64,000 nt of DNA from Caldifarciminota bacterium (lineage in GTDB: Bacteria; Hydrothermota; Tepidihabitantia; SM23-42), in assembly GCA_020349965.1 (NCBI GenBank), contig CP070705.1, forward strand, positions 2,134,905 to 2,198,904, given 5' to 3'. The notes beneath the pieces were generated by a model. The model was given only the letters and a program-made list of their open reading frames with translations, ran no database searches and was not told where the DNA came from. Numbering within the stretch: the stretch's first letter is position 1; every line of letters starts with the position of its first letter. Positions 24,396 through 40,174 of the stretch are shown here, piece after piece. The position numbers and the translations under genes are program-made.

Positions 24396-24405
24396 TGAAT
24401 CAGAT

Positions 24406-24966
24406 GTGGGGTAATCTATAAGCCGGGTTCTGTAGTTGATAGCCATTTCTCTTGTTCCGGCATCACTGCCGGATTCTGCGCAACCTACCCGTTCCAGCCC
24501 TGGCCGCTTTTGACGGCAGGAAGAGGCGGGCCACCTCTACTGGAACTGCTTGGTTTTGCTTCGGATGGGGTTTGCCGTACCTCTGATGTCACCATCAGAG
24601 TGGTGAGCTCTTACCTCGCCATTTCACCCTTACCCAGCACCTTTGGTGGCACAACAGGCTTTGCATTGATGCCGTGTTCAATTCAACCCGTCTGACCAAA
24701 GCGCCTGGTCATGGCCTATGGCTGCAGCATTGAGATCGCCTGTAATCTTTGCATCAAGATCACCAACATCTTGTCTCTGAAGGACGCAGAAATTTCCTTC
24801 AAGCGATCGTTCTATCAATCTCATGTGCCACCAAAGGTGCTGGGCGGTATGTTTTCTGTGGCACTTTCCTCCCGCACACAAAGTGCGGGGCTTCCAGTTA
24901 GGAAGCATCCTGCCCTGTGAAGCCCGGACTTTCCTCTCACATGGAGCGGCTATCCGATTACCCCAC
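24406..24966 (-). ncRNA. rnpB: RNase P RNA (rnpB), class A, with large insertion
   Basis: Conserved blocks are unmistakable: GAGGAAAGTCCGGGCT near the 5' end, GGTAAGGGTGAAA and GGTAAGAGC in the middle, ACAGAACCCGGCTTATAGAT at the 3' end. The ends pair perfectly over 11 bp (helix P1, 24966-24956 with 24416-24406), which fixes both termini, and GATAGCC/GGCTATC forms P2. At about 561 nt it is far longer than the usual 350-420, because of an arm at the P8/P9 position (24633-24844). The ribozyme matures tRNA 5' ends. It is preceded by its own promoter. Confidence 0.95.
24633..24844 (-). repeat. Enlarged P8/P9 arm of rnpB with 21-bp perfect inverted repeat
   Basis: Arms 24824-24844 and 24633-24653 are exact reverse complements (21 bp) and enclose 170 nt. 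In E. coli this position, between ACCGCC and GGTAAGGG, holds only about 23 nt. The enclosed segment contains at least two small hairpins (GAAGGA/TCCTTC and GACCA/TGGTC) and no convincing reading frame. Confidence 0.85.
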
Positions 24967-27159: not shown

Positions 27160-27335
27160 CCGAAGGTTATATGTAGCTGGGGATAGGTCTCCTGGCTTAT
27201 CCTGTTCTGATCAGCCTTCCCGTCCGCAGGCAATAAATAAGCGGTAGCAGTGGCTTTCTTTGATCGGAAATAGATGGAATCACAGTGGCGGCGACCGCGG
27301 CCGATTCTCACGGCGCTTCCCTTGAATCCACCAGC
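27160..27335 (-). promoter_or_regulatory. Cobalamin riboswitch
   Basis: The minus strand carries the B12-box set in order: GATTCAAGGGAAGC, GTGAGAATC, CCGCCACTGTGATTCC, GCCACTG, GGGAAGG-like and the B12 box AGCCAGGAGACCT. After the box, CCTT pairs with AAGG of the receptor Shine-Dalgarno (27150-27165 region), so control is probably translational: bound B12 should keep the site closed. Boundaries are approximate. Confidence 0.93.
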
Positions 27336-27340
27336 CTGTC

Positions 27341-27369
27341 AGTATACCTTATGTATCAAAGGTTGTCAA
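27341..27369 (-). promoter_or_regulatory. Promoter of the riboswitch-receptor transcript
   Basis: Minus strand TTGACA (27369-27364), 17-nt spacer, TATACT (27346-27341); the transcript would begin near 27335, just before the riboswitch. Confidence 0.75.
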
Positions 27370-34171: not shown

Positions 34172-34276
34172 AAATACGAAATCCTAAGCACCAAACTCTA
34201 AGCAAATCTCAAATTCAAAATTCCAATGACCGAACCGTTTTGAATTTAGTGTTTCGAATTTCGGATTTGAGATGGA
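34172..34276. repeat. AT-rich imperfect palindromic intergenic element
   Basis: A run rich in AAATTC/GAATTT words whose left arm TCTCAAATTC matches the right arm GAATTTCGGATTTGAGA with a few mismatches. Such word-salad elements recur in many genomes of uncultured bacteria; only this copy is visible here. It lies just upstream of the GGDEF gene promoter. Confidence 0.55.
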
Positions 34277-34329
34277 AAGCGCCGCCGGCCAATGTTTTTT
34301 CCTCGTCGAGTCGGGGTCTGGGCCGTCAG

Positions 34330-34358
34330 TTGACTTCTTTTGGGTCACCGGTTATAAT
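34330..34358 (+). promoter_or_regulatory. Promoter of the GGDEF-ATPase-TPR gene
   Basis: TTGACT (34330-34335), 17-nt spacer, TATAAT (34353-34358). The ATG at 34368 follows after 9 nt, giving a leader of only 2-4 nt. It lies inside a longer open frame from 34272 and so rules out that start. Confidence 0.78.
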
Positions 34359-34367
34359 CAAGTGTAC

Positions 34368-37300
34368 ATGAAGGGAATCTACCGCGATGACATGACCAAT
34401 TGCCACAACCGCAGATACATGTACCATTGGATTGAAAATGAAATCAGACGGGCAAGGCGGTTTGGCACAAAATTCGCTTTGATGCTGATCGACATCGACG
34501 ATTTCCGGGCGATAAATAATACCTACGGCCATCTCGAAGGTGACCGTATTCTGGTGAAGTTCGCGGAGTTCTTACGGAATAACATCCGGGAAGTTGACGG
34601 CATCGTACGTTACGGTGGTGATGAATTCATTGTACTCATGCCGAACAGCACGTCCAACGGTGCGACAGAACTTGGCCGTCGTATCATCGATGCGCTTAGC
34701 CGCACCGAATTGCGAACGCATAGAGTTCAGTGTAGCATAGGATTCTCTGTCTTCCCGGATGATGGGATGAAGGCCGACGGTTTGGTGAGCCATGCGGACA
34801 GCCTTATGCGCCAAGCCAAAGGTGCAGGTAAGAACCGGGTTTGTGCGAAAAGTGAAGCGGTCAAAAAATTCCGAATTCCCTCGCCGGTTTTTGTCGGACG
34901 TGATGATGAGACCAACTGGTGTTTGAGTCAGTTGAAGGATCATGATACGATCTTCGTAGCGGGAGATGTCGGAGTTGGCAAAACACGTCTTGTGATGGAT
35001 ATCAATGAGCGGCTCTATGCCCAGATCTTCCTGCAGGGTAATGCATATGAGGCACTGTCTACTGTAGCGTATCACCCTTTCAAGAATATGTTTGCCGAGT
35101 TGATGCATAAGGATTCGTCTCTTGTCGAGCAGACATTTAAAAGGTTGCCTCCAATCCATCAATCCGAGCTGATGAAATTATTGCCTCCGTCGGCTTTGTT
35201 GCGCGCAGAACATTCCGAGGAGCTCGACAAATTCCGCCTTTTCCATGCGATCAGCGATTTTCTATCGCTACTGGCTGAAAGCGTATATCCAGCGACAACC
35301 ATTATCTTCGTCGACGATTTGCATTGGTCCGACCGTCCGAGTATCGAGCTGCTGGATTTCGCGATGCGCAGTTTGAAGCATAACCTCAAGATCTTCGGCA
35401 CCTACCGGATCGTAGGTAAGAAGAATCTGCCGTTTTCGACTTATTGGAGCGCGTGGACTAAGGAGCGGTTGTGTGCGCAGATTACGCTTTCTCCGCTGAA
35501 TGAAACCCAAACAAACACGCTTCTTCAGGCGATTATGGGCACGGTGCCACCAACCATGGCAAAACAGGTATTTCGTGAGAGCGGCGGCAATCCATACTTC
35601 ATCGAGGAAATCCTGCTCGAATATGAGCGGAGGGGAAGACTTCAATGGGATGGGAGAGAATGGCGTGTTCTCAGGAGGGATACGGGTTCATTTCCTTCTA
35701 CAACCGAGGGGAGGATAAAGGGTAAGTTGAAGTGGTTGGATCCGGAGCTACGGTCTTTTCTGGAGATCGCGGCCGCCTACGGTCAGGAATTCGCTCCAGA
35801 GGTAGTGGCTACTGCCAGCAAGCGCAATGTAGGCCAGATCCTGGAGGCGCTTGATGAACTCTGCAGAGCCGGGTATCTGAAGAACAGGCATACGGGAACC
35901 TACTTCTTCACTGAAGACATCGTGCGTCAAGTCGTACACAGGAATATCATGCGCGCCAACGTGCCGGGTTATCACGAGGCCGTCGGTGAGGCGATAGAGT
36001 CTGTCTTTCATGACGACATCTCAAGCCATTACGAAGAATTGGCCAATCACTTCGCGCTTGCTAAGGATGCGCCGAGAGCTTTGATATATTCGAAGAAAGC
36101 CGCCCAGAAAGCCAGGGACCATTATGCCCACGGGTTGGCAGTGAAGTTCTATGAACGTGCGCTGAAGTACGAGGATGATATCGAACAGGCTTTCGAGATC
36201 GAGTTGGCTCTCGCCGAGATTAACACCACAATTGGTAACTATAAAAAAGCACTGGCGCAATTGAACGCTTGCCTTCGGATTAACCCGTACGCTTACCGCG
36301 TTTATGAACGACTCGGCAGCGTTTACGAAAAAATCGGCCAATATAAGAAAAGTCTCGAACACTACGAAAAGGGTATGAGAATGACTTCCGGCACGAATGC
36401 AGTCTATATATTCCAGGTCGCAATAGCATGGCTCTACACGAGAATGGGGCAATATATACGTGCGAGGGAAGAGTGTACGGTAATTTTGCGGAAGAAGAGA
36501 CAGATGAGCAGGCAAACCTTGGGTGATACATACGTCATACTTGGTGTCGTTCTTCTGAGGTTGGGTAAATTCAGTAGGGCAGAGCAATACTTCAGAAAGA
36601 GTCTGCGGATAAGGAAATCGATCGGCGACAAGAAAAATATTGCTGCATGCTATGTGGATCTGGGGCTGAATTACCAGGGAAAATTCAATATCAAGATGAG
36701 TGAGCGATTCTTTAGACGTGCGCTCGGTATTTACGAGGAAGTAGGTTATGAGGAAGGCATTCTCATCACGCTTAATAATCTTGGGGTGATGTACGCCAAC
36801 TACGATTTACCGAAGGCCGAGGCGTATTGTCTTGAGGCGCTGACCAAGGCAAAATTGATTGGAGCCAGGAGAACCATCGTTCTGCTGTATAACAACCTTG
36901 GCATGATCAACCATAATCGCTTATCGAAAGACCAGGCCGTAGAATACTTCCTGCGTTCACTCAGGCTTGCCAAGGACATTGATTTTTACGAAGGAATCAT
37001 CTTTGCGAGCATAAGTCTGAGCGAGTTCTTCCGTGAAAGAGGAAAGGTGAGGAAAGGAAAATCCTATCTACAGAACGCTTTGCGTGTGGCTGCTGATATA
37101 AACGTGAAATTTCTGAGTATTGATTGTTTGATGGAAGAGATCGAATATTATCTTAGGGCGAAGAATTATGCGGAGGCCCGCAGGCTCGTGCAGAAAATGA
37201 CTCGACAGTTGAAGGCGGAGCACAATGTTCTGTACAAGATTTACAGCGTAATGTATGATGGACGGGTCCTCCTGGCGAGGGGCGAGCATGCACGAGCGAT

Positions 37301-37517
37301 GGTTCGATTCGGGCAAGCCTACCGCTACGTCAGGAACCTACCGGCAAACAAGATATCCGGTGAGATATTCTATCTCAAAGGTAAAGCATTTAAGAATGGC
37401 GGGCGATTGAAGGAAGCTCTGACCATGTTTCTTGAGGCAGCCAGAATCTTCAAGGCTATCGGTAACTTGCGTTACCTGGACAAGGTCGAACAAGAAATCG
37501 CCGGCACAAGTGCATAA
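34368..37517 (+). CDS. Diguanylate cyclase fused to AAA-type ATPase and TPR repeats
   Basis: 1049 aa. Residues 1-160: GGDEF domain with intact active site GGDEF (83-87) and an inhibitory I-site REVD (74-77) five residues before it. Residues 170-560: STAND/MalT-like ATPase with P-loop GDVGVGKT (199-206) and Walker B IIFVDDLHW (312-320), then a winged-helix-like part. Residues 600-1040: TPR repeats (SLEHYEKGMR, RAEQYFRKSLRI, KAEAYCLEALTKA). Predicted to make cyclic di-GMP under control of the ATPase/TPR sensor. No membrane span. Monocistronic. Confidence 0.92.
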   Translation: MKGIYRDDMTNCHNRRYMYHWIENEIRRARRFGTKFALMLIDIDDFRAINNTYGHLEGDRILVKFAEFLRNNIREVDGIVRYGGDEFIVLMPNSTSNGATELGRRIIDALSRTELRTHRVQCSIGFSVFPDDGMKADGLVSHADSLMRQAKGAGKNRVCAKSEAVKKFRIPSPVFVGRDDETNWCLSQLKDHDTIFVAGDVGVGKTRLVMDINERLYAQIFLQGNAYEALSTVAYHPFKNMFAELMHKDSSLVEQTFKRLPPIHQSELMKLLPPSALLRAEHSEELDKFRLFHAISDFLSLLAESVYPATTIIFVDDLHWSDRPSIELLDFAMRSLKHNLKIFGTYRIVGKKNLPFSTYWSAWTKERLCAQITLSPLNETQTNTLLQAIMGTVPPTMAKQVFRESGGNPYFIEEILLEYERRGRLQWDGREWRVLRRDTGSFPSTTEGRIKGKLKWLDPELRSFLEIAAAYGQEFAPEVVATASKRNVGQILEALDELCRAGYLKNRHTGTYFFTEDIVRQVVHRNIMRANVPGYHEAVGEAIESVFHDDISSHYEELANHFALAKDAPRALIYSKKAAQKARDHYAHGLAVKFYERALKYEDDIEQAFEIELALAEINTTIGNYKKALAQLNACLRINPYAYRVYERLGSVYEKIGQYKKSLEHYEKGMRMTSGTNAVYIFQVAIAWLYTRMGQYIRAREECTVILRKKRQMSRQTLGDTYVILGVVLLRLGKFSRAEQYFRKSLRIRKSIGDKKNIAACYVDLGLNYQGKFNIKMSERFFRRALGIYEEVGYEEGILITLNNLGVMYANYDLPKAEAYCLEALTKAKLIGARRTIVLLYNNLGMINHNRLSKDQAVEYFLRSLRLAKDIDFYEGIIFASISLSEFFRERGKVRKGKSYLQNALRVAADINVKFLSIDCLMEEIEYYLRAKNYAEARRLVQKMTRQLKAEHNVLYKIYSVMYDGRVLLARGEHARAMVRFGQAYRYVRNLPANKISGEIFYLKGKAFKNGGRLKEALTMFLEAARIFKAIGNLRYLDKVEQEIAGTSA

Positions 37518-39605: not shown

Positions 39606-39680
39606 TGGTGGCCCCAACGGGACTCGAACCCGTGTCTCCACCTTGAAAGAGTGATGTCCTAACCACTAGACGATGGGGCC
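39606..39680 (-). tRNA. tRNA-Glu(TTC)
   Basis: Cloverleaf with acceptor GGCCCCA/TGGGGCC, D-loop TAGTGGTTAGGA, anticodon loop CTTTCAA (TTC), T arm CGGGTTCGAGTCCCG. Discriminator A and an encoded CCA (39608-39606), the only one of the four tRNAs here with CCA in the DNA. Its first 22 nt overlap the end of the cyclic-nucleotide-binding gene, and the OmpA ATG is 18 nt downstream. Confidence 0.97.
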
Positions 39681-40174
39681 TTATGGGCAAGGATGTAGAG
39701 ATCCCTGAACGATTTATTGTCGACTATTGCCTGATTTATCAGGAAATAATTCTCGATATTCCTGTTTGTTGCGATGATACTGTTGCACAGATCTTCAACC
39801 ATTGCCCTGAGAAACTTCGCGGCGACCTTCGGATTTTCAGTCATGATATCGGTTAAATCCTTTTTCCTCAAGACGAGCAGTCGCGTATTGGTCTTGGCTT
39901 TTGCCGTGACCGAGCGCGGTTTACTGGTGAGCAATGAAATTTCGCCGAAATAGCTGGATTCTTGGAGCTCGGTCATTAGCAGAACAACATCACCGCGCAT
40001 TAGATAGATTTCGACACGTCCGGTTTCAATGATGAACATCTCATCGCCCGTCGTACCTTCCTTTACGATTTCGGTACCTTCAGACAACTCCCTGGGCTGC
40101 CATCTGGGGAGCATCCAGCTGATTTCCTGGGGCGTCATGTACTTGAAAAGCCAGACTTTCTCGAGATCTTTCAC
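39659..40174 (-). CDS. Cyclic-nucleotide-binding domain protein (Crp-like sensor without HTH)
   Basis: 171 aa, a single cNMP-binding beta-roll (EGTEIVKEGTTGDEMFIIETGRVEIY, then SSYFGEISLLTSKPRSVTAKAKT with the phosphate-binding GEISLL..R.V.A pattern) plus a C-terminal helix. No DNA-binding domain. The GTG start at 40174 is 6 nt after the -10 box. The last six codons (APSSSG) and the TAG stop lie within tRNA-Glu, so excision of the tRNA would leave this mRNA without a stop. Confidence 0.85.
   Translation of the reverse strand: MKDLEKVWLFKYMTPQEISWMLPRWQPRELSEGTEIVKEGTTGDEMFIIETGRVEIYLMRGDVVLLMTELQESSYFGEISLLTSKPRSVTAKAKTNTRLLVLRKKDLTDIMTENPKVAAKFLRAMVEDLCNSIIATNRNIENYFLINQAIVDNKSFRDLYILAHKAPSSSG

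Follow-up and report, generated by a model that had tools for sequence, protein, structure and literature searches.

A cyclic-nucleotide-binding protein gene that ends inside tRNA-Glu(UUC) as a probable coding leader of the tRNA precursor in candidate division WOR-3

The window analyzed here, a stretch of 64,000 nucleotides from a genome of candidate division WOR-3 / Stahlbacteria, harbored a gene for a predicted cyclic-nucleotide (cNMP)-binding protein whose reading frame ended inside the downstream gene for tRNA-Glu(UUC). This reading frame probably constitutes the coding 5' leader of pre-tRNA-Glu(UUC), whose message would become non-stop once the tRNA matures. The cNMP-binding coding sequence (40174-39659, minus strand; 171 aa) started with a GTG codon at 40174 and terminated with a TAG codon at 39661-39659, and the tRNA, with an encoded CCA, occupied positions 39680-39606 of the same strand (ARAGORN tRNA-Glu(ttc); Rfam tRNA, 67.9 bits). 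The 22-nt overlap (39680-39659, minus strand) encompassed the acceptor 5' strand, positions 8-9, the 5' strand of the D-stem and the D loop of the tRNA. Read as codons, it consisted of the third base of K165 (AAG) followed by APSSSG and the stop codon located in the D loop, the junction being CAT AA/G GCC CCA TCG TCT AGT GGT TAG (the slash precedes tRNA position 1). A preliminary description of this DNA had read the frame as running 22 nt into the tRNA with the same six residues and stop, and the open reading frame and ARAGORN coordinates, together with the Rfam match, confirmed it. No other glutamate tRNA with a UUC anticodon, which reads GAA, was found in the genome. Downstream, an OmpA-family / CarboxypepD_reg gene (39587-37557, minus strand; Shine-Dalgarno AAGGAGAGG) had its start codon 18 nt 3' of tRNA-Glu(UUC), and no terminator was found between the two.

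The overlap was conserved throughout the order. Among the 61 relatives searched, 27 represented all genomes of the same order, and a full-length cNMP orthologue was present in each of them (27/27; protein identity 63-98%). The same frame, the 22-nt overlap and the same UAG in tRNA-Glu(UUC) were found in all 26 orthologues whose contig reached the gene end. In the remaining genome (G017), the gene was split over two contigs and its terminal piece (C75:3-134; tRNA start at C75:116) fitted the same geometry; the count of 27/27 for the overlap takes in this genome. In a class-level relative from another family (L028, family f3; 43% identity), three additional codons preceded the tRNA, with frame and TAG unchanged. 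The comparison of orthologous loci called for by the preliminary description thus came out in favor of a conserved overlap, frame and stop being shared by the 27 order genomes and by L028. The OmpA-like gene also followed tRNA-Glu in orthologues whose contigs extended that far. The genomes compared were metagenome-assembled genomes (MAGs), several of them in one contig, and the evidence presented here is entirely sequence-based; it indicates that the overlap is evolutionarily fixed in the order, beyond chance.

A single promoter appeared to serve both genes. Upstream of the cNMP gene, a -35 hexamer TTGACA (40208-40203, minus strand) and a -10 hexamer TAAAAT (40186-40181, minus strand) were separated by N16 and gave 11/12 consensus matches; they lay where the preliminary description had placed a leaderless promoter. 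In the promoter set of 27 sequences (26 order orthologues and that of f3), TTGACA was present in 27/27, and the form TTGACA-N16-TANAAT occurred in 26/26 order orthologues with 11/12 matches, the f3 promoter reaching 12/12. The -10 hexamer ended 6 nt before the start codon in the window and in most orthologues, and 7-10 nt before it in a few, while in f3 (L028) an in-frame ATG lay 6 nt beyond the -10. From this spacing we infer leaderless initiation of the cNMP message, with +1 predicted at 40174 in the window. As a genome-wide baseline, 22 of the 46 tRNA regions of the same genome carried a promoter of at least 10/12 within 80 nt, of the same type as the cNMP promoter; tRNA-Glu(UUC) had none at this threshold and distance. 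The best promoter-like site in the 150 nt before tRNA-Glu averaged 7.7 matches over the 27 sequences, vs 7.8 in shuffles; in the window genome the best score over the 150 nt was 7/12, with no site in the last 60 nt. The CUC isoacceptor of tRNA-Glu had its own consensus promoter in 13/13 relatives examined. The separate tRNA promoter that the preliminary description had named as counter-evidence was not found, no site near the tRNA rising above chance in the 27 sequences. Since no recognizable promoter of its own precedes it, tRNA-Glu(UUC) most likely depends on the cNMP gene promoter 500 nt upstream, and one transcript covering the cNMP gene and tRNA-Glu is well supported by sequence comparison.

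RNase P cleaves at tRNA position 1, and tmRNA rescues ribosomes stuck on stop-less RNA. The genome encoded RNase P protein and, outside the locus, a class A RNase P RNA (24403-24965, minus strand), the ribozyme expected to cut pre-tRNA-Glu, as well as tmRNA and SmpB. The cut is expected between 39681 and 39680 (minus strand), as deduced from tRNA position 1, and is predicted to remove the stop, in agreement with the earlier claim that RNase P cleavage leaves a message lacking a stop codon. A competing RNA structure with the upstream sequence was considered and rejected: the cloverleaf arms formed in the upstream context in the minimum free energy (MFE) fold (z = -0.6).

We propose that transcription from the single tRNA-type promoter, with +1 at or a few nt from the start codon, would yield an RNA carrying the leaderless cNMP reading frame, tRNA-Glu and the OmpA-like gene. 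Ribosomes following RNA polymerase would traverse the acceptor 5' strand and then the D loop until they meet the UAG, the first translations taking place before or during tRNA folding. Once the tRNA is folded, RNase P would cut at G1 and the tRNA would mature, leaving an upstream message ending in ...CAU AA, its stop codon gone. Later ribosomes would stall on the cut message, with rescue by tmRNA-SmpB expected, and protein output would be capped at the rounds completed before the cut; we expect this output to be low, with the tRNA as the main product. Given an RNase P cut at position 1 and tmRNA rescue, mature tRNA and complete message would be mutually exclusive end products. The earlier claim that each precursor gives either the tRNA or an intact message, never both, would hold for the final RNA species but not for the products, because translation of a nascent leaderless mRNA can run ahead of the RNase P cut, and one transcript could give protein and then tRNA.

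The 171-aa protein contained a single Pfam domain (PF00027, 3.3e-19), and its AlphaFold model displayed a confident CNBD fold (pLDDT 84.6) whose best structural matches were CRP-family cNMP domains (CRP/CNBD); profile and fold both placed it in the CNBD class. The Gly-Glu and Arg of the phosphate-binding cassette were present, G77, E78 and R87 being invariant in 16 aligned orthologues. Class III cyclases were encoded in the same genome. Assignment to the CRP/FNR transcription factors was rejected: their C-terminal DNA-binding helix-turn-helix (HTH) was absent from the 171 aa (PF00027 was the only Pfam domain, and no CRP-type NCBIfam model reached its cut-off). Instead, the model displayed two C-terminal helices (115-152 and 154-164) followed by a tail, of which residues 168-171 were predicted disordered (pLDDT <50), and the orthologue alignment was near-invariant to residue 164. 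Loss of the stop may therefore cost the protein little beyond tagging, as the tail is predicted disordered. A function for APSSSG as a tail was also rejected, its conservation being inseparable from the constraint on the tRNA. About 2 kb from the cNMP gene, a 1081-aa reading frame (34272-37517), in which the sequence suggests a GGDEF-like domain ahead of an ATPase and TPR-like repeats, is a possible nucleotide-signalling regulator.

Substitution patterns suggested selection at the boundary. Codon 165, which has only its third base within the tRNA, was AAG (23) or AGG (3) in 26/26 sequences and never a stop, though a single step separates AAG from TAG, whereas none of the 24 fourfold-degenerate columns was invariant. 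This comparison indicates that a sense codon is maintained by selection where the frame crosses into the tRNA; alternatively, bases -2 and -1 could be conserved because of RNase P and not because of K/R165. In the overlap clade, D-loop nucleotides 15, 16 and 19 underwent at least 11 changes on the coding-sequence tree, against none in loop length or in the TAG, which was invariant in 27 sequences. WOR-3 families without the overlap showed at least 8 stop-breaking D-loop changes vs 11 others, against 0 vs 11 in the overlap clade, a difference (Fisher p ~0.014) that is based on small and partly minimum counts and is not fully corrected for phylogeny. In these non-overlapping families, only 28 of 75 tRNAs carried TAG at the in-frame codon, and the CUC isoacceptor of the overlap clade underwent at least 4 changes in D-loop length. 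These patterns suggest that the D loop of tRNA-Glu is under constraint from the coding sequence; the constraint on the stop could simply reflect avoidance of readthrough across the tRNA.

The association of the cNMP gene with tRNA genes extended across the phylum (147 genomes searched, 25 loci fetched). In families f11, f15, f16, f20 and f21, the cNMP gene lay between tRNA-Lys(UUU) or tRNA-Val(GAC) and tRNA-Glu, the upstream tRNA being mostly 11-21 nt away with no room for a promoter between them; in f11 a tRNA-Val also followed tRNA-Glu. Such tRNA-cNMP gene-tRNA loci (L147, L150, L153, L155-L157, L160 and L162, from f15, f16, f20 and f11) were mostly without internal promoters. The gene ended 44-49 nt before tRNA-Glu in three f21 genomes, where the tRNA had its own promoter (11/12 in two of the three), 4 nt before it in f20 and 0-6 nt before it in f11, and its overlap with the tRNA measured 1 nt in f16, 10 nt in f15 and 22 nt in f1, f2 and f3. 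The f21 genome G088 had no tRNA-Glu after the cNMP gene, f30 displayed a tRNA-Lys 5' of the gene and no tRNA-Glu 3' of it, and in f12 the gene had no tRNA nearby. The preliminary description had counted relatives whose gene stops before the tRNA as evidence against it: these do exist in f11, f20 and f21, but not in the order, and the gene still abuts the tRNA in f11 and f20, while the tRNA of f21 has its own promoter. Its presence in a tRNA operon across families makes the cNMP gene an old member of that operon, and the overlap appears to be the extreme form of an old mRNA-tRNA arrangement. The ancestral phylum-wide operon would have comprised a promoter, tRNA-Lys or tRNA-Val, the cNMP gene and tRNA-Glu; in the order, the upstream tRNA would have been lost and the end of the cNMP gene would have run into tRNA-Glu, the leaderless promoter probably descending from the tRNA promoter. 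Some members of the class, from f4 and f8 (L104 15-1490; L122-L126), lacked the cNMP gene; there, the gene ending 5-15 nt before tRNA-Glu encoded a PpiC-type peptidyl-prolyl isomerase, an assignment checked by Pfam in L104.

What purpose the overlap serves, if any, can be read in two ways. We rather favor a frozen by-product: in an ancestor, the end of the gene would have drifted into the tRNA, and the protein completed ahead of cleavage would suffice, with no regulation involved. This is fully compatible with the coding-leader explanation, only the purpose differing, and accounts for the data almost as well as a control purpose would. The overlap would be hard to lose because the protein needs its residues to K165 and the tRNA cannot change, which agrees with the near-invariance to residue 164, the retention of K/R165, a tRNA constrained for itself and a tail predicted disordered; the junctions of the other families also form a continuum from -49 to +10. 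However, tRNA function by itself does not seem to demand so strong a constraint on the D-loop stop, and the unchanged overlap and in-frame stop of the clade, set against the neighboring D-loop changes and the loop-length changes of the CUC isoacceptor, speak instead for a regulated switch, which we hold to be rather unlikely. The overlap would then link the capacity of RNase P or of tmRNA to a cyclic-nucleotide sensor: whenever RNase P or trans-translation is limiting, intact or untagged cNMP protein would accumulate, and the message would otherwise be destroyed, as for arfA (PMC3989581) with RNase P in the place of RNase III. The tmRNA and SmpB genes fit such a switch, but no regulatory sequence beyond the overlap was found, and the non-stop logic appears dispensable for the function of the gene, since sister lineages lack the overlap (f11 and f20, where the gene abuts the tRNA, and f21, where it is separated). 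In this rather unlikely reading, a conserved switch, the only GAA-reading tRNA would, as it matures, erase the stop codon from the leaderless message of a sensor; the amount of sensor would serve as a readout of RNase P or trans-translation capacity, and its frame would constrain the D loop.

Two further alternatives bear on the coding-leader explanation itself. If tRNA-Glu had its own promoter in the 3' end of the cNMP gene, most tRNA would come from a short transcript and the mRNA would rarely be cut; a few orthologues (L013, L014 and L024) carried ATAACG-N17-TATATT ending 11 nt before the tRNA (8/12), and the tRNA-Glu of f21 has a promoter of its own. Against this improbable reading stand the low score in the window, the mean equal to that of shuffles, and synonymous variation that was normal (observed/expected ~1.0) to codon 164 and fell only in the tRNA part, which argues against a conserved promoter embedded in the gene end. 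A hidden promoter was rejected on these two negative scans, which a sigma-70-unlike promoter, or one fully spelled by conserved residues (LYI = TNTAYATH), would evade. That the reading frame is an annotation artefact, not real or ending earlier, is scarcely credible: short reading frames do frequently extend into a tRNA, since the D arm supplies a TAG, and several spurious cases occurred in this genome, but amino-acid conservation was strong with synonymous change free in 26 species, none had an upstream in-frame stop, and the PF00027 match and confident fold argue for a genuine protein.

In Escherichia coli, the thrU-tyrU-glyT-thrT-tufB operon and secG-leuU give mixed mRNA-tRNA transcripts, in which the reading frame ends outside the tRNA and processing leaves the message intact. 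The present locus is alike in that one RNA would carry both a protein gene and a tRNA, to be parted by RNase P and 3' processing, as is the order tRNA-Lys/Val, cNMP gene, tRNA-Glu of other WOR-3 families; it likewise appears to have a shared promoter and no separate tRNA promoter. Unlike in those operons, the reading frame would not stay intact after tRNA processing here, the 22-nt overlap placing the stop codon beyond the cut. Polyadenylation completes partial stop codons in animal mitochondria; in the window, A residues added to ...CAU AA cannot make a stop, and among the junctions of the clade and the other families only that of f16 would leave ...UA. Excision of mitochondrial tRNAs that adjoin protein genes sets mRNA ends (Ojala et al. 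1981, as cited in PMC5474008), and the f16 junction (TA/G) is alike in that tRNA G1 is the last stop base. In f16 (L150, L154), where tRNA-Glu position 1 doubles as the final base of the TAG stop, one A added after the RNase P cut would give UAA, as in animal mitochondria. The arfA message of E. coli is made non-stop by RNase III at an mRNA hairpin and policed by tmRNA (PMC3989581); here too, a housekeeping endonuclease would make the message non-stop, followed by tmRNA, but the predicted cut is by RNase P on an overlapping functional tRNA and the protein is unrelated. Overlapping mitochondrial tRNA genes are resolved by 3' editing (PMC4284800), and cleavage alone cannot give both products intact from one precursor in either case, although these are two tRNAs there and an mRNA and a tRNA here. 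A bacterial coding sequence overlapping the 5' end of a tRNA was not found in the literature searched, whose incomplete coverage makes this weak evidence of absence. To our knowledge, no bacterial gene has been described with its stop inside a downstream functional tRNA, order-wide and with one promoter for both. The locus offers a natural test of three points: how cells order translation and RNase P cleavage of the same RNA, whether the maturation of an essential tRNA can generate non-stop messages at a high rate, and whether the sequence of a tRNA can come under constraint from a reading frame. It also reveals a phylum-wide link between a cNMP-binding gene and tRNA genes.

A few minor observations were also made. 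A 254-aa reading frame without Pfam match (L055) ended 10 nt inside tRNA-Met in the same genome and could be a second such overlap; most other long reading frames entering tRNAs in this genome look spurious, and several contain a tRNA promoter. Genome G002 carried a second, divergent UUC tRNA-Glu-like gene beside the overlapping one (L225, G002:C1 ~1814049). The RNase P RNA of the window measured 563 nt vs the 367 positions of the model, implying large insertions, and a cobalamin riboswitch (62.6 bits) was located at 27165-27366 on the minus strand.
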